Part shown: positions 2,566-56,331 of the stretch, piece after piece | Numbering within the stretch: the first letter of the stretch is position 1 | Layout: each line of letters starts with the position of its first letter | Assembly (NCBI GenBank): GCA_015068645.1 | Contig: SVKD01000012.1 | Location: forward strand, 1-64,000 | Origin: Oscillospiraceae bacterium | Lineage (GTDB): Bacteria; Bacillota; Clostridia; UMGS1840 | Direction of reading: 5' to 3' | Length of the DNA: 64,000 nt | The notes under the pieces: generated by a model | Told to the model about the DNA's origin: nothing | Databases searched by the model: none | The model's input: only the letters and a program-made list of their open reading frames with translations | Made by a program: the position numbers and the translations under genes

Positions 2566-3351
2566 GTGATTTGCAGAAACTGTGGAAAAGAACAGTCATC
2601 CAACGACCGATTCTGTACTGATTGCGGAGCACCGTTAAATGTGGGTACTCCCGTATCAAACCCCATGCCCAATCCGGTACCTGTTACTCCCAATAATCAA
2701 AGCCGGAATTTAACGATTGCTTTGATTGTGGTGTCTGTTGTAGCATTGGTTGTGATTTTTTGTTTGTTAATCTTCCGAACCAATCAACCCATATATCCCA
2801 ATGGCGATACCTCTGGTGCTGTGGTTGCGTCGGCAGAACCCAGTCCCACTCCCGAAGCTACAAGTTCTCCGACACCCGCACCTACGGAAACTCCGGAGCC
2901 CACTGCCGAGCCTACTGCGAAACCTACTCCGGATCCCACTTCGGATCCTACTCCGCTTCCTACACAGGCGCCTACTCCGGTACCAACACCGGCAGCCACC
3001 CCGGTACCCACTCCGAATCAGCGGTATCAGCAGAAGAATCAGTATCTCACCACCGCCAGTGGTATTGAAATCTATTCCCAGAATTACTTGGATTATGCAA
3101 CCGAATCTGAGATGGCTTACGAATCAGGCATTGTGTTTAACAAATGGGATGTTTTATTAAATGATGTGTACCAGTATCTGAAAGGAATCATGTCCTCGTC
3201 TGATTTCAAAGCGTTAGAGGCAGACGAATTGAACTGGATTGTGGCAAAAGAAGCAGAGATGAAAACGGTATCTGACCAGACTTCCAAAAACCTGATTGGA
3301 ATTTCTTACACCAAAGACCGTTGTTATTATCTGATTTCCTTAATTAACTAA
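2566..3351 (+). CDS. Zinc-ribbon membrane protein with Pro/Thr linker and LprI-like (DUF1311-type) domain
   Basis: 261 residues starting at GTG with TAGGAGG seven bases upstream. An N-terminal zinc ribbon has two CxxC pairs (C3/C6 and C17/C20), followed by one transmembrane helix at about 49-70, a long PT(P)-rich linker at about 88-150, and a C-terminal domain. The C-terminal domain contains LNDVYQYLKGIM and ELNWIVAKEAE, a pattern like the LprI/DUF1311 family (lysozyme-inhibitor-like) but without its usual cysteines. Topology is probably zinc ribbon inside and the rest outside. It shares the N-terminal layout, ribosome site and linker type with the next two genes but has a different outer domain. 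The function is unknown. Confidence 0.75.
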   Translation: MICRNCGKEQSSNDRFCTDCGAPLNVGTPVSNPMPNPVPVTPNNQSRNLTIALIVVSVVALVVIFCLLIFRTNQPIYPNGDTSGAVVASAEPSPTPEATSSPTPAPTETPEPTAEPTAKPTPDPTSDPTPLPTQAPTPVPTPAATPVPTPNQRYQQKNQYLTTASGIEIYSQNYLDYATESEMAYESGIVFNKWDVLLNDVYQYLKGIMSSSDFKALEADELNWIVAKEAEMKTVSDQTSKNLIGISYTKDRCYYLISLIN

Positions 3352-3355
3352 CCAA

Positions 3356-3391
3356 TCAAAAGGAGTTATTCCATGGGATAACTCCTTTTTA
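3356..3391 (+). terminator. Intrinsic terminator after first zinc-ribbon gene
   Basis: AAGGAGTTAT/ATAACTCCTT stem with a T-run. A near-copy of this hairpin follows the second paralogue at 4411-4446, so terminators were duplicated along with the genes. Confidence 0.8.
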
Positions 3392-3526
3392 GAATAATTA
3401 TGTTTTGTCATTTTATCCCTTGATTGATTAAGGGGAACGCGTTATCATGAAAAAGGTTAAAAATGAACTTTTTTCATGTTGAAAAAGACAACCAGGTTGT
3501 GATTATTTTTTAGGAGGCGATGATTT

Positions 3527-4339
3527 TTGTTTTGTAAACATTGTGCTAATCAACTGACATCTAATGACCGGATTTGCCCCGTTTGCGGCCATCCGGTAGG
3601 AGAAATTGTTTCGGTTGCTAAGAAGAAAAATCCAACCCAAGTTCTGTTGATTTTGGTGTTGGTTACTTTAATTATGGCTCTGGTTGTGGTTTCTTTGTTG
3701 ATTGTTTATAAAATCAATAGAGAGCCGTATGAACCGGGACACCAGGTCGTGATTGTGAATCCTACTCCCGAACCGACTGCAGAGGCTACTTCTACACCTA
3801 CTCCTACAGAGAGTCCTACGCCATCTCCCAGTCCTACTCCTACACCAACCGCAACACCTGCTCCCTCGCAGACGCCTACACCTACACCTATGCCAACCCC
3901 AACTTTTAATCCTGCTCCTTCACAGGAAAACGGTCCTTATCAGACGTATGTGAATCGGGAATACGGTTTTTCCTGTGTTTATCCCTCGGATTTCTATTCG
4001 ATAACGCCTCAAGGGGAGGATGCGGTGAAAACCTATATTTCGGCGGATTCCACTGCTGTGATGACCATTCGTGCAGTATGGAATACAGGAGGCTTGACAC
4101 TTGATGATGTGTATGAAGATTTTCAAAATTCATATGGTGCCAACATTACGTATCATCCCAGGGAAGAAACCTGGTATGCTGCAAAAGTTGAATGGGGAGA
4201 CCGTTCCTTCTATCGGAAGCTCTTTTTGAAAAACGGAATGATTTGCTGTATGGATTTTGAATATCAAACGAAAGATCTGGATATTTACGGACCTCATATT
4301 GAATATATTGAAGACCATTTTACCACGAAAATTGATTAA
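3527..4339 (+). CDS. Zinc-ribbon membrane protein with Pro/Thr linker and PsbP-like outer domain (paralogue 2)
   Basis: 270 residues from a TTG start with TAGGAGG nine bases upstream; no ATG is placed near this ribosome site. The zinc ribbon is C3/C6 and C17/C20, the transmembrane helix is about 39-61, and a PT-rich linker spans about 79-133. The C-terminal ~130 residues begin YVNREYGFSCVYPSDF, a pattern seen in PsbP/Mog1-like lipoprotein domains. The first ~65 residues are almost identical to those of the next gene and the outer domains are clearly related, so the two arose by tandem duplication. Repeat copy B begins directly after its stop codon. Function unknown; probably a cell-envelope protein. 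Confidence 0.75.
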   Translation: MFCKHCANQLTSNDRICPVCGHPVGEIVSVAKKKNPTQVLLILVLVTLIMALVVVSLLIVYKINREPYEPGHQVVIVNPTPEPTAEATSTPTPTESPTPSPSPTPTPTATPAPSQTPTPTPMPTPTFNPAPSQENGPYQTYVNREYGFSCVYPSDFYSITPQGEDAVKTYISADSTAVMTIRAVWNTGGLTLDDVYEDFQNSYGANITYHPREETWYAAKVEWGDRSFYRKLFLKNGMICCMDFEYQTKDLDIYGPHIEYIEDHFTTKID

Positions 4340-4415
4340 ATAAGAACCAGACCCGATGACGCAATCAAAGATTGCGGTCGGATGCCCCGGAACCTTGTTG
4401 TATTCACAATAAAAA
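4340..4415 (-). repeat. Dispersed repeat, copy B (inverted relative to copy A)
   Basis: Reverse complement of 304-379 with about four mismatches. As in copy A, one end abuts a terminator hairpin (4411-4446) and the other abuts the end of a coding region. Confidence 0.75.
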
Positions 4416-4446
4416 AAGGAGTTATCCTATTGGATAACTCCTTTTT
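4411..4446 (+). terminator. Intrinsic terminator after second zinc-ribbon gene
   Basis: AAAAAGGAGTTATCC/GGATAACTCCTTTTT with a 4-base loop; it could work in both directions. It is the same stem family as 3356-3391. Confidence 0.8.
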
Positions 4447-4507
4447 TGGAATGAGTAAGATTTTTTTGTTTTATTGGGTAATTTGTGGTAAAATCACAGA
4501 AAAAAGA

Positions 4508-4536
4508 TTGATTTATCGGAATCTGTATGATATAAT
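4508..4536 (+). promoter_or_regulatory. Probable promoter of third zinc-ribbon gene
   Basis: TTGATT (4508-4513), 17-bp spacer, TATAAT (4531-4536). Confidence 0.6.
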
Positions 4537-4613
4537 AAGAATGATTTATATCAAATTTCTATTGTATATTGTTTTTGAGAACGGATCATGAACATTTTTA
4601 GGAGGCGATGATT

Positions 4614-5423
4614 TTGTTTTGTAAAAATTGTGGTAATCAACTGACATCCAATGACCGAGTTTGCCCTGTTTGCGGCCATCCGGTAGGAGAAGTTGTTTCG
4701 GTTGCTAAGAAGAAAAATCCAACCCAAGTTCTGTTGATTTTGGTGTTGGTCACTTTAATTATGGCTTTGGTTGTGGTTTCTTTGTTGATTGTTTATAAAA
4801 TCAACAAAGATCCGGGTAACACCGGCGGCACCCCTGTGGTGATTGTGACGCCTACTCCCGAACCGACTGCAGAGGTTACTGCTACTCCCAGTCCGACTCC
4901 CACAGAGAGTCCTACTCCGTCTCCCAGTCCGACGCCAACGCCTACCCCGACACCTACTCCCACTCCCACGCCGACGCCTACTTCTACTCCTTCGTCTTCC
5001 CGTGAAATAGATACCTATTATACGTATACCAATAGGGAATATGGATTTGCCAGTGCATACCCCGCAAACTTCTATTCTGTGACCCCCAGCGGTGTGAATG
5101 CAGTAAAAACCTATGTGTCGGAAGATTCCACTGCCACGATGACAATCCGCGCTACTTGGAATACAAGTGGAATGTCTGTCCAGGATACTTTGGATGACTT
5201 ATATGCGGAATATGGTGGAGACGTAAACTACGAGGATCACGGCGAAACTTGGTATGCTGCAGCGGTAACAAGAGCAGGCGGAGCTCGTTCATTATACCGG
5301 AAGCTTTTTGTGAAAAACGGTATGATTTGTTGTTTGGATTTTGAATACAACATCAGCGATTACGATATTTATCAGCCTTGTCTGGAATATCTGGAAAATC
5401 ACTTTACTACGAAAATCAATTAA
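4614..5423 (+). CDS. Zinc-ribbon membrane protein with Pro/Thr linker and PsbP-like outer domain (paralogue 3)
   Basis: 269 residues if the TTG at 4614 is used. An in-frame ATG at 4608 lies only three bases after GGAGG, too close for initiation, while the TTG matches the start of paralogue 2 exactly. It has a zinc ribbon with two CxxC pairs, a transmembrane helix at about 39-61, a PT-rich linker built on near-perfect 6-base repeats, and an outer domain starting [16 protein letters not shown]. The DNA repeat in the linker could change length in frame by slippage. It is the tandem duplicate of the preceding gene. Function unknown; envelope location inferred. Confidence 0.75.
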
Positions 5424-5697: not shown

Positions 5698-5916
5698 ATG
5701 GATATAGTTAAAGTTTTCGGAAACAACTTAAAGAAATATCGTACTGCTATGAATATTTCGCAAGAATCGTTTGCTGACAAATGCGGTATGCACCGTACTT
5801 ATATCAGCGCTATTGAGTGCTACAGAAGAAGTATTTCTCTAGAGAACATTCAGCGTATTGCCGAAGCACTTGAAATCGAAACTTATAAATTATTTTTGGA
5901 GGATGAGATCAAATGA
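5698..5916 (+). CDS. XRE-family controller (C) protein of the restriction-modification system
   Basis: 72 residues from the ATG at 5698, chosen because GGGAGG lies eight bases upstream; an upstream in-frame ATG at 5674 has no ribosome site. The protein is almost entirely a helix-turn-helix: SQESFADKCGMHRTYISAIE, followed by RRSISLENIQRIAEALEIE. The HRTYIS-IE segment is typical of restriction-modification C proteins, small dimeric regulators that first activate and later repress their own promoter and so delay nuclease synthesis. The next gene starts four bases before this one ends (ATGA-type overlap), so controller and nuclease are co-transcribed and translationally coupled. Confidence 0.85.
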   Translation: MDIVKVFGNNLKKYRTAMNISQESFADKCGMHRTYISAIECYRRSISLENIQRIAEALEIETYKLFLEDEIK

Positions 5917-6644
5917 AAGAACTAATGATAGAATTAAATAATTTGCGAAAAAAGTCCAATGGCGATACCAGCATCATTAAATCCATTGAAGATGAAAAGG
6001 CACTTTTTCCTTTTAGTGTTGAAAATAGACTGTTAGCATATTACTTGGCAATAGGCGAAATTACATATGAAAGATATTCACAATTAAATACCGAGTATTG
6101 TGAGCGAAATAAATATTTGGATCTGTTTGATATGGCTCCTCGTACCTACGGGCAGACTTGGGGAGAGCAACACGTTCGCACACTATTTCCGCAGTTTGTA
6201 AAAGCAACTAAAGAAAATGTTTCTGCAGAGTACCCTGCATTTGATGGTGAATTTGATTTATGGCTTGACGGAATTCGTATTGAAGTAAAAGCCTGTCGTG
6301 CAAACAGCACAAACGCAGGTGGCAGTTTAGCAAGCAGAGCGTATTTACATTCCGAAGCAAAAGCTGCTGGATTCAAGTATCACTATCAGCAGTTAAAACC
6401 TGCTTGTTGCGATGTTTTCATTTGGATCGGTACTTGCCGTGACGAATTGATTTATTGGGTTCTCACAAGCGAGGAACTTCAAAGAACTGGAAAACTTGGT
6501 CCCCAGCATCGTAACGAAAATACGGGTATTGCAGGTGTTGAAGTGTTTGAAGGACAAGTTTTTATGACCGAAGAAGAATTATCTCCATTTCTGGTTGACG
6601 AAAAAGATATTTTAGAAATTGTTCGTCGAAAAGGTAAAAAATAA
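5913..6644 (+). CDS. Type II restriction endonuclease candidate (PD-(D/E)XK fold)
   Basis: 243 residues, overlapping the controller gene. The central motif is FDGEFDLWLDG followed by IRIEVKACR, giving acidic residues D111/D115 and the E124-V-K126 pair of a PD-(D/E)XK metal-dependent nuclease core. The C-terminal part has a DVFIWIGTC beta strand and a basic tail. I do not recognise the exact specificity family. Genetic context (controller protein upstream, DNA adenine methyltransferase on the opposite strand) makes it the main candidate for the DNA-cleaving subunit. The island is more AT-rich than the neighbouring genes, which fits horizontal transfer. Confidence 0.7.
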   Translation: MKELMIELNNLRKKSNGDTSIIKSIEDEKALFPFSVENRLLAYYLAIGEITYERYSQLNTEYCERNKYLDLFDMAPRTYGQTWGEQHVRTLFPQFVKATKENVSAEYPAFDGEFDLWLDGIRIEVKACRANSTNAGGSLASRAYLHSEAKAAGFKYHYQQLKPACCDVFIWIGTCRDELIYWVLTSEELQRTGKLGPQHRNENTGIAGVEVFEGQVFMTEEELSPFLVDEKDILEIVRRKGKK

Positions 6645-6668
6645 GTATTTTTTAAAAGGAGTTGTTGT

Positions 6669-7211
6669 ATGGCAGATAAAAAGAAACTTGAGCAATTCAT
6701 AAATGGCATATTTAGTTTGGGTACAAATTTCGGTGAACTCGCCCAGTTAATGATTAAGGAGTTGGAGAAATTCACTCCGGCAGATGGGAAGTATTTTGAC
6801 CTGTTGGATTCAAAAAACCAAAAGATAGAAGCGAAGTTCTCACGAGCTAAGAAAAAACTCAAACCGCTGAAAAAATCTAATATAATTGACCTTTGTTTGA
6901 ATTCCGCATCGGATTCAAGGGTTTTGACTGAAGCTGAGGCTACGAATATAACATTCGATTGCAACATACAACAAATCAAACCCTCCGAATTCGATATTCT
7001 TTACTACGGAATCTTTTTCAAAGATAAAATTGTAATCTTCAAAGCTCAAAGCGACATTGTCCCTAATATGCCCGGATATTCAATTCAGCACAAAGGTGGT
7101 ACTGAGTATCAATTCCATATAAACAAATCAAACTATGCCGAACATAAAAAGAAGTATTTTCATAAGGAATTAACCTACTCTCAACTACTTGCATTATTTG
7201 AGAAAAAATAA
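6669..7211 (+). CDS. Second nuclease-like protein of the restriction-modification locus (unrecognised)
   Basis: 180 residues starting at ATG after AAAAGGAG. The segment YFDLLDSKNQ followed by KIEAKFSRA has the spacing of a PD-(D/E)XK core (D44/D47, then E54-A-K56), preceded by an acidic helix (ELAQLMIKELE). A second strand-like stretch is EFDILYYGIFF. It is 24 bases behind the first nuclease and in the same operon, and its last 18 bases overlap the 3' end of the convergent methyltransferase gene. It may be a second endonuclease subunit, a nicking partner, or the true endonuclease with the upstream gene as an accessory. I do not recognise the family by name. Confidence 0.6.
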   Translation: MADKKKLEQFINGIFSLGTNFGELAQLMIKELEKFTPADGKYFDLLDSKNQKIEAKFSRAKKKLKPLKKSNIIDLCLNSASDSRVLTEAEATNITFDCNIQQIKPSEFDILYYGIFFKDKIVIFKAQSDIVPNMPGYSIQHKGGTEYQFHINKSNYAEHKKKYFHKELTYSQLLALFEKK

Positions 7212-9374
7212 ATTCTTTCCAGATAATGCCCCACGAATAGTTTTTCTCTGTATCTCTGAAAGAGAATAAATACTCATAATTTCATTATCAAGATCTTCAT
7301 ATAGACCACTAATGTTTTCGCTTGAATTCATTATGTGGTCTACTTTTTTTATAATACCACTCTGTTTTTCAGTACTTACCATGGGGATCGGTAACGATTC
7401 TATGTGTGATCTCAGCAACTTAACAGAATTGTATTTTTTGTTTAAAAAGAAAGCTGCTACACTAGAATTCAAAATTGCCAAAATGTACTTTATATCCATA
7501 CCTTCAATCTGTGGTATTAAGATGTTGCAACTGTTCAACGAAAGCGTTTGTTGATTATCATACATAAAAACAGGCACTTCAGCAATGAATCTATACAATA
7601 ACTTTTCTTTAGCTCGATACATTTCAGTTGACGCAACTTGCTGAAATTTTTCAGGCGCAAAATAAATATAGTTATCGGTTTCCTTCATAGCATATCTAAA
7701 AATATCACTACCTTTTAAAACAATTTCCATTCCTTCTGTTTTTTCATTTGTGATATACTCCTTATTGTTACCGGTGACAATTCCCAATGCAAACTTAGCG
7801 TTATTTGCAAGATATTTAGCGTTTTTTAATGAGCCAATCACTTGTAAACAATCGTATTCTTCATCGCTCATGTTAAAAGAGAACGATGTTGCATTTATAT
7901 CTCTGTTTTCATTAATAACGAATTCTTTATTATTCAGTTCAATTCTGCAACCTTTCGTTTCTCCGCAACAACCTTTCTGAATGCCTAAGATGATCGCAGG
8001 ACATTGCACTCCCGAAAAAGCATTCCCCAAGTAACTCACAAATTTAAACGCCGTGTTTTTTACAATAAGTTCTCTTGCCTGCTGATGTGAGTTTACACTT
8101 AAAATCGCTTCTGGCAATACGTATGCTAAGTACCCATTTTCTTCTATCATTGCCATTCCTTTTTCAATAAACAAATCGTATGACTCCATACCTTTGTTTT
8201 TAGCAGTAGTATAATTAGCAGTAAGATAAGCGGTTTCTTCTTTGCTAAAATCATATCCCCAAGGTGGATTGCCCAATACTACAGAGAACTTACGAGAGAA
8301 AGTATTGGAAAGGGTATCGCCACAAACAAATTGAGAATACAACTGCTCTCTAGTAATGCTGTTATCATGCAAAAACATATTGATTCGTGTAATTAGAATA
8401 CTAACTTCATCTATGTCTTGACCATAAAGATTCTCAATTCCCACACCTTTTTCAACAAGACCGATAAGGAAATTTCCCGTTCCACAGCAAGGATCACATA
8501 ATGTCTTGTTTTGAGTATTAACATAGTTTTTCAAATTGCAAATAAGCGTATTAACCGTTTTTTGGGGTGTGTAATATGCACCGGTTTGTTTACGATGACT
8601 TAAATCTCGAAGGGAAATGTAAACAAATCCCAAAGTATCTTCTAATGGAACTAACTGAACTTTACTATTCAAAGCGGTTTGAATATTTGCAATCGTAATT
8701 TTTGATACATCAATATTCCCAAGCAAGTCTTTAATCAAACTATTGAATACATCATTACTTGTAATATCACTTTTTCCTTCAAGTAACAAATAATCTGATA
8801 CAACTATCCCTCCGCTTTGTTGATATAATTGTATGGCAAAATTAGCGAGAATCACTCTCAATTCATCTTCTGTAATTTGGTCACAAGAATTCAAAATACT
8901 TTCAACAATTTCACGATTATGATTGTTTTTGATGTAATCTTTGTATAGGACTTTGCCACTTACACTTTTTTTGTTCCTTCGACTTTTCAAACGGTTATCT
9001 TTTCCGATTCTTATTTCTGAGATAAGTGCTTCTATATATTTCTTATCAAAAGTTTCGCTATCAGACTCAATCTTCAGTTTTCCGAGTCTAACCCAGTTTT
9101 TGACAGTTGCTGGAGAAATAGAAAGCAGCTCACAAACTTGAGCAATACTTAATTTTTCTTCTTCAATTTTATAAAGATCATCAAATAATGATAATTGATT
9201 TTCAGGCACAGTGCTTTTTATTCGTGCATCAGTAGGTTTTTGGGCATTGGTAGGAATTAACCATACACCACTCATTCTATTAGCGCCTTCAATACGTCCT
9301 TGTTCGCACAATATCTGAACTCTTCTTTTAGATATATTAAATTTTTCTGCAGCATCAGAAACCGATATATACAT
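7194..9374 (-). CDS. Adenine-specific DNA methyltransferase with two N-terminal helix-turn-helix motifs
   Basis: About 726 residues from the ATG at 9374, preceded by GAGGTG; the ATG at 9398 lacks a ribosome site and lies near the predicted transcript start. Residues 1-45 (MYISVSDAAEKFNISKRRV) and about 75-103 (LSIAQVCELLSISPATVKNWV) are two MerR/excisionase-type helix-turn-helix motifs. The catalytic part has motif I DPCCGTGNFLIG (about 290-300) and motif IV NPPW (about 370), typical of gamma-class N6-adenine methyltransferases, followed by a long target-recognition region with QTGAYYTP before motif I. It should protect host DNA from the facing nuclease genes. Its promoter is near-perfect, unlike that of the nuclease operon. 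Confidence 0.88.
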   Translation of the reverse strand: MYISVSDAAEKFNISKRRVQILCEQGRIEGANRMSGVWLIPTNAQKPTDARIKSTVPENQLSLFDDLYKIEEEKLSIAQVCELLSISPATVKNWVRLGKLKIESDSETFDKKYIEALISEIRIGKDNRLKSRRNKKSVSGKVLYKDYIKNNHNREIVESILNSCDQITEDELRVILANFAIQLYQQSGGIVVSDYLLLEGKSDITSNDVFNSLIKDLLGNIDVSKITIANIQTALNSKVQLVPLEDTLGFVYISLRDLSHRKQTGAYYTPQKTVNTLICNLKNYVNTQNKTLCDPCCGTGNFLIGLVEKGVGIENLYGQDIDEVSILITRINMFLHDNSITREQLYSQFVCGDTLSNTFSRKFSVVLGNPPWGYDFSKEETAYLTANYTTAKNKGMESYDLFIEKGMAMIEENGYLAYVLPEAILSVNSHQQARELIVKNTAFKFVSYLGNAFSGVQCPAIILGIQKGCCGETKGCRIELNNKEFVINENRDINATSFSFNMSDEEYDCLQVIGSLKNAKYLANNAKFALGIVTGNNKEYITNEKTEGMEIVLKGSDIFRYAMKETDNYIYFAPEKFQQVASTEMYRAKEKLLYRFIAEVPVFMYDNQQTLSLNSCNILIPQIEGMDIKYILAILNSSVAAFFLNKKYNSVKLLRSHIESLPIPMVSTEKQSGIIKKVDHIMNSSENISGLYEDLDNEIMSIYSLSEIQRKTIRGALSGKNLFFLK

Positions 9375-9409
9375 AATAGCACCTCGCACTTTGTTCATTT
9401 AATAAATTG

Positions 9410-54600: not shown

Positions 54601-54637
54601 AAAATGGCTTACAGAACACTCTGTAAGCCATTTTTTT
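54601..54637 (+). terminator. Intrinsic terminator of the ribosomal superoperon
   Basis: AAATGGCTTACAGA/TCTGTAAGCCATTT with a 4-base loop and T-run. Confidence 0.92.
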
Positions 54638-54725
54638 ATGCGTTTATCTTACTAAAAGACGGTATTTATTGTTAGAGTTTGACTTTTTTAGAAATATATG
54701 ATATACTTATACTGAGGTGATAAAT

Positions 54726-56264
54726 ATGAATTTTATTCAATATGTAGAAAACATCCCTAATATAACTATTGCAAAGAGAATTGCATCCGCTTATGTTGCA
54801 GACTATACTAGACTTTCTTTAGATGAAATAAAGGAATGTTTAATTAAAACTGCATTACAATATACATCTTATGAAAATATTTCCAATCAGTTGGAAAAGA
54901 TAAAGTTAGATTCAAATCGTGCCATTCGTATCATTTCACCTATTCTGTTAAGAGATCATCTTTTGAATCAAGATGACTTCATTTCAAAAGAAACAGAAAC
55001 CGATTCCGCAATCAAGACATATGAAAAGAATATTGTTGACGATTCTAACAACTATGATTTTACTAAAATGTCTAAGGATTTTGCATTGTTTAAACATATG
55101 CTTGATGTTGCTTGGGCATACAATGATGATATCTCAGTAGATGAAAAAAACTTGTTGGAAGCACTTAGAAAATACTTGTCTATTTCCAACAAAGAGTTTC
55201 ACATGTTAGAAGCAAAAGCAGGACGATTCCCGCAACGAGAGAACCTGTTACACGAATCGAAAGATATTGATGATACAAGAAAAGCTTTACAATCGAAGGG
55301 ATTGTTATTTACTATAAAAAATTCAGACGGCATCGTATGCGATATGATTCCTGACGACATTGCAAAATGCTTGCGTCAATACTACAACATTGAAATTCGT
55401 GCTTATGGCTATGAAAAAATGATTGACTATATCATAAAGAAAGCGAAGAAGCAATATTTAATTGATATTATTCACAAAGCAAGTCAAAATTCTAGAAAAG
55501 CGCAAATTGAGTTGTCTAATAACCCAACTCTGACAGAATTAAAAGATGTGATTTTAAAATCTATTCTTCCCTCCAATTTGTTGGGAGGATTTTCTCCACG
55601 AGATGGATTGGACGGTTCCGTTTTATCTGCATGGTGCGGCGAAATCGGTTTGAATGTCTCTGGTACAAAAAATGTGTTGATTGAACGAATCTTGGCTTTT
55701 TATGATTCCATGAGAAAAATTGAATTAAAAACTGAAGATGATAGAGAAAAGCTGATTTCTGTTTATGAACAGTTGGCAAATAGGGACTTAAAATTCTTAA
55801 GAGCAAATAAAATTATTGAAAAGGATTTACAATGCGAACACTTATTCGAGGATGCTACAAACTATCTGTTTGAAAAGATGTTGTTAAATAAACCGCTAAC
55901 CTTGACGGGAACTGACCATCCTGATGGAAAACTTACTTTTAAAGATAAGTATATTATGTGGGATAACAAATCCAAAGAAAGTTCTGTTAATTTAAAAGAC
56001 CATATTCAGCAATTTGAAAGATATATCAATTCATCTGATAAGGACGTGGTTGTGTTTATGGTGATTGCCCCTGAATTCACTCCGCAAAGTGCACAACTTT
56101 GTGTTGATTTTTCTTTGAATAATGATACTCAAATTCTTCTGATTACTGCAAATGAATTGAAACAGGTGGCAGAATTGTGGCAAAAGAAAAATCCTACACA
56201 GCCTTTTAATTTAGGATATTTTAAACAAAATGGTCGTTTTGATATTAGCCGCTTGAATTTGTAA
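54726..56264 (+). CDS. Orphan SAP-domain protein with FokI-like nuclease domain
   Basis: 512 residues from the ATG at 54726, with GAGGTG upstream. Three parts can be seen. Residues ~118-165 resemble a TerB-like helical fold (FKHMLDVAWAYNDDISVDEKNLLEALRKYL). Residues ~285-325 form a SAP-type DNA-binding motif (LSAWCGEIGLNVSGTKNVLIERIL). The C terminus has HPDGKLTF with D400, then MWDNK with D413 and K415, then LKDHIQQFERYI. The order PDG, D-x-K, L...Q..RYI is that of the FokI cleavage domain (PD-(D/E)XK). No methyltransferase or other partner adjoins it. It is AT-rich and lies between two conserved loci, so it is probably a transferred defence or mobile-element gene. Confidence 0.65.
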   Translation: MNFIQYVENIPNITIAKRIASAYVADYTRLSLDEIKECLIKTALQYTSYENISNQLEKIKLDSNRAIRIISPILLRDHLLNQDDFISKETETDSAIKTYEKNIVDDSNNYDFTKMSKDFALFKHMLDVAWAYNDDISVDEKNLLEALRKYLSISNKEFHMLEAKAGRFPQRENLLHESKDIDDTRKALQSKGLLFTIKNSDGIVCDMIPDDIAKCLRQYYNIEIRAYGYEKMIDYIIKKAKKQYLIDIIHKASQNSRKAQIELSNNPTLTELKDVILKSILPSNLLGGFSPRDGLDGSVLSAWCGEIGLNVSGTKNVLIERILAFYDSMRKIELKTEDDREKLISVYEQLANRDLKFLRANKIIEKDLQCEHLFEDATNYLFEKMLLNKPLTLTGTDHPDGKLTFKDKYIMWDNKSKESSVNLKDHIQQFERYINSSDKDVVVFMVIAPEFTPQSAQLCVDFSLNNDTQILLITANELKQVAELWQKKNPTQPFNLGYFKQNGRFDISRLNL

Positions 56265-56285
56265 TGATTGAACATACTGAACGAA

Positions 56286-56324
56286 AAAAGAGACTGTATC
56301 ACATTTCGTGATGCAGTCTCTTTT
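56286..56324. terminator. Bidirectional terminator between the SAP nuclease and the SipL-like gene
   Basis: AAAAGAGACTG-ATCAC/GTGAT-CAGTCTCTTTT; serves both converging genes. Confidence 0.85.
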
Positions 56325-56331
56325 AATTGTA

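Follow-up and report, generated by a model that had tools for sequence, protein, structure and literature searches.

The DNA analyzed here, a window of 64,000 nucleotides from an Oscillospiraceae bacterium, carries a lone gene whose 512-residue product almost certainly contains a FokI-type nuclease, its predicted PD-(D/E)xK center intact and strongly conserved. Sequence comparisons argue strongly that it was acquired as a single gene and is not a resident of its host genome. We favor, with moderate confidence, the interpretation that it is a horizontally spread, single-gene anti-phage or anti-plasmid nuclease, which would restrain itself until incoming DNA triggers it. The features of the locus are collected in Table 1.

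Table 1. Position of the nuclease gene, its domains and its surrounding signals in the window.
Feature	Position	Strand	Basis or remark
Variable stretch between rpmE and a sipL-like gene	54635..56331	.	2-3 bp in congener G001; occupied by different genes in G003 and G004
Promoter TTGACT-17-TATACT, traveling with the nuclease gene	54679..54707	+	10/12 match here
Ribosome-binding site GAGGTG	54714..54719	+	6 bases ahead of ATG 54726; in most copies
FokI-type SAP nuclease gene, 512 aa	54726..56264	+	ORF; full-length relatives
Conserved helical block, residues ~119-163 ('TerB-like' in the initial annotation)	55080..55214	+	Conserved in BREX/Shango-like operon partner
Winged-helix-like part, residues ~178-226	55257..55403	+	Low-confidence model
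SAP DNA-binding motif, residues 299-326	55620..55703	+	Pfam PF02037, E 3.9e-7
FokI-type PD-(D/E)xK nuclease domain, residues 337-512	55734..56261	+	Fold and conservation
Predicted catalytic D400 of the PDG motif	55923..55925	+	Invariant
Predicted catalytic D413-N-K415	55962..55970	+	Invariant
Terminator, 17-pair stem, within the inserted stretch	56286..56324	+	3' of the nuclease gene

The open reading frame was confirmed, and nearly all full-length relatives share its M-x-F N-terminus. The sequence TTGAC(A/T) is present 17-22 nt upstream of the start in 16 of the 18 copies of the gene and, judging from the consensus promoter alone, expression would be continuous. No Rfam match was obtained around the gene, and PHROGs returned no meaningful match to its product.

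The initial annotation had recognized a SAP motif joined to a nuclease with a FokI-like D..DxK center, and both elements withstood scrutiny. The SAP motif scores 30 bits with PF02037, above the gathering cut-off of 23.9. Pfam PF09254 matches the whole protein weakly over residues 347-437 (E 0.0026, 17.7 bits, cut-off 25) and reaches 19.6 bits, still below the cut-off, with the nuclease domain alone; the full-length relative encoded by genome G780, 33% identical, passes it with 26.5 bits. Since a PDB profile search with the sequence of the nuclease domain did not find FokI, the assignment rests on the Pfam score of this relative and on structure. Folded alone with 21 sequences (AF2), the domain gave a confident model (pLDDT 86.9, pTM 0.86) whose best solved match is FokI (Foldseek E 4.9e-4; Z 14.3 over 160 residues), followed by Nt.BspD6I (Z 12.9), R.BspD6I2 (Z 11.8) and HindIII (Z 9.1). 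The whole-protein model is poor (pLDDT 64.5), yet its best Foldseek matches are again FokI and Nt.BspD6I. None of the 18 close sequences, whose alignment has a mean column identity of 86%, departs from D400, D413 or K415, nor does any of the seven in a divergent nuclease alignment reaching down to 26% identity; the motif is therefore not due to chance. The divergent relatives, which include haloarchaeal plasmid and provirus proteins, have also kept E371, F374, E375, A377, T378, G401, W412 and N414.

The front end of the protein is less easily named. The block at residues ~119-163, labeled TerB-like in the initial annotation, is a genuinely conserved segment; the label itself stays unconfirmed, as no match to Pfam TerB (PF05099) appears up to E 10 and the region is poorly modeled. 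A protein of genome G579 shares this block within model positions 72-247 (E 3.5e-14), carries additional SAP motifs but lacks a FokI domain, and is related to the N-terminal half without having the nuclease. Immediately downstream of its gene come those for a BrxC/D ATPase (PADLOC BrxD 9.4e-78, SngB 2e-61) and a BrxHI-like helicase, a link seen in this one genome only. In the same locus (L064, 5748-10635), the SAP-rich, ATPase and helicase genes are followed by dGTPase-like and DarG-like genes. Shango is an experimentally tested anti-phage system with TerB, ATPase and helicase genes (PMC10250203). Kinship to SngA, the TerB_N/TerB_C protein that accompanies SngB and SngC in Shango, was rejected by profile comparison (hhalign probability 0.3 against an SngA set), and no ATPase or helicase gene neighbors the nuclease gene, which places it outside Shango.

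A search of genome contigs retrieved 21 relatives, 69-83% identical, present in one copy per genome except for one gene split over two contigs. The gene occurs in 4 of 391 genomes of the class and 4 of 398 of the phylum (~1%), in 1 of 21 genomes of the family of one carrier, and in the host alone (G000) among the five genomes of its genus. It is absent from the four congeners, although the RpoA of three of them is 98-100% identical. Because the composition of the gene is foreign (32.5% GC against 41.1%), this pattern argues for gain rather than loss. For 102 of 120 genome pairs the gene is more similar than RpoA, and the two trees are discordant; a partial correlation of distances nevertheless persists (Mantel r ~0.5). 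The dN/dS of ~0.05 points to strong purifying selection. Most synonymous sites are saturated, so that the spread by transfer is mostly not recent.

The insertion site is variable. Only ~3 bp separate the rpmE terminator from the end of the sipL-like gene in congener G001. The congener loci L051, L052 and L053 cover this spot, which is empty in G001, filled in G004 by an XRE-type HTH together with a protein that has a copper amine oxidase N-terminal domain, and filled in G003 by a set related to that of G004 plus another ORF. Elsewhere, relatives sit at unrelated sites whose flanking genes share nothing except chance families and a short related ORF, which immediately precedes the nuclease gene at four loci (L004, L005, L016 and L021). 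Phage integrase is matched by two of the 97 flanking proteins, and housekeeping proteins make up most of those listed; a resolvase match was obtained for one of ten flanking proteins scanned singly. A HEPN-like protein adjoins the relative in G554 (L062, 7765-8229). Farther away in the window, a row of three genes (2566-5423) encodes zinc-ribbon-like proteins that resemble one another and carry threonine-proline repeats. Neither of the conditions that the initial annotation set for refuting its view was encountered: a nuclease fold is predicted, and the gene is neither universal nor tied to this locus. No fixed partner gene recurs across loci, and there is good support for describing the gene as a lone nuclease. 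The suggestion of a mobile-element remnant, on the other hand, is unsupported since the gene is intact, strongly selected and without an accompanying element at most sites.

Plasmid and phage searches with the 512-residue protein returned only relatives from Natrinema and Humcor1. No close relatives were found in viral contigs using this protein or its alignment as query, and the haloarchaeal provirus protein retrieved from them only the same provirus gene. Humcor1 is an active provirus of Halorubrum coriense, an induced, circular siphovirus (PMC7911831), and its relative of the nuclease gene would fit the idea of cargo borne by a temperate virus.

The FokI-type fold, the patchy spread, the foreign GC content, the provirus relative, the BrxC/D-linked relative of the N-terminal half and the lack of a constant methylase among the families searched together make defense the best interpretation. 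The nuclease would be made continuously in the resting state and held back by the front end, as happens in FokI. Binding of incoming DNA, or of some structure or modification found only there, would fall to the SAP and winged-helix-like parts; this binding would free the nuclease, which would then pair up and cut. Several observations run against a defense function: the flanks are mostly housekeeping genes and not defense islands, no PADLOC defense model fits the protein (a single weak, non-significant match was returned), the spread is not very recent, and the nuclease domain, with a mean identity of 0.87-0.91, is unusually constant for an arms-race gene. We would also propose, more tentatively, a one-gene defense family with members in gut Clostridia as well as in haloarchaeal proviruses. 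Its proteins would couple a FokI-type nuclease to a sensing front end of the kind also used by an ATPase-helicase defense operon, and would tell self from foreign DNA without methylation.

As a special case of defense, the protein could be a modification-dependent (type IV-like) nuclease acting on phage DNA with modified bases. Such an enzyme would need no methylase because modified phage DNA is its target, which would account for self-avoidance and agrees with a lone, patchily spread gene without constant methylase. Pfam, however, revealed no known reader domain for modified bases, SAP being a general DNA-binding motif, and we regard this version as unlikely.

Methylases also bear on the idea of a plain restriction enzyme that cuts a fixed sequence while a methylase from another locus protects the host. 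FokI and Nt.BspD6I are indeed sequence-specific restriction enzymes and the window encodes an Eco57I/TaqI-like N6-adenine methylase (7194-9398). This methylase, however, has its own neighboring genes and lies 45 kb from the nuclease gene; together with two neighboring ORFs devoid of Pfam matches (5913-9398), it is possibly a separate restriction-modification unit. The initial annotation was right about the absence of a methyltransferase in the neighborhood of the gene, but the window does carry this separate methylase locus. No cognate methylase of a type IIS system stands beside the nuclease gene, none is shared in the immediate flanks of its relatives, most loci having no flanking gene in common, and no methylase family of the four searched for recurs in all seven carriers: PF02384 has no strong match in G357 and none in G077, while matches to PF01555 are missing from G000, those to PF00145 from G554 and G780, and those to PF02086 from four of the seven. 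Plain restriction is accordingly improbable.

A selfish homing-like gene, spreading through DNA cutting and not serving its host, would fit a single gene traveling with its promoter and standing alone at many sites. Homing nucleases, however, usually keep to one site whereas most loci here share no flanking genes, and a single copy per genome is the rule, so that we give this explanation little credit. A DNA repair or processing nuclease of the host, which strong purifying selection and housekeeping neighbors might suggest, is hardly credible for a gene of foreign GC content that is missing from close congeners and ~99% of related genomes and has a relative in a provirus.

If defense is indeed the function of this nuclease, methods relying on defense islands would miss the gene because it stands by itself, with housekeeping genes around it. 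A FokI-type nuclease working without a methylase would raise a clear question of self-recognition and could supply a new nuclease module for biotechnology.

Among the papers searched for SAP or TerB associated with FokI, none describes this protein, which shares traits with three groups of known systems. Shedu, Cap4 and other PD-(D/E)xK defense nucleases likewise combine a nuclease effector with a regulatory half; Shedu (Z 5.6) and Cap4 (Z 5.1) are weak structural matches, the nuclease domain being closer to FokI than to either, and Pfam detects no SAVED domain in the 512-residue protein. The likeness to Shango, made up of a TerB protein, a BrxD-like ATPase and a helicase, and to BREX BrxC/D-BrxHI operons lies in the G579 relative of the N-terminal half, encoded upstream of ATPase and helicase genes; unlike these operons, the gene described here is single, has its own nuclease and comes without ATPase or helicase. 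The type IIS enzymes FokI and Nt.BspD6I/R.BspD6I2 have the same nuclease fold and D..DxK center, likewise at the C-terminus behind a DNA-binding part. The 512-residue protein differs from them in having no methylase partner, in its PF09254 score below the cut-off, and in its SAP motif and distinct front end.
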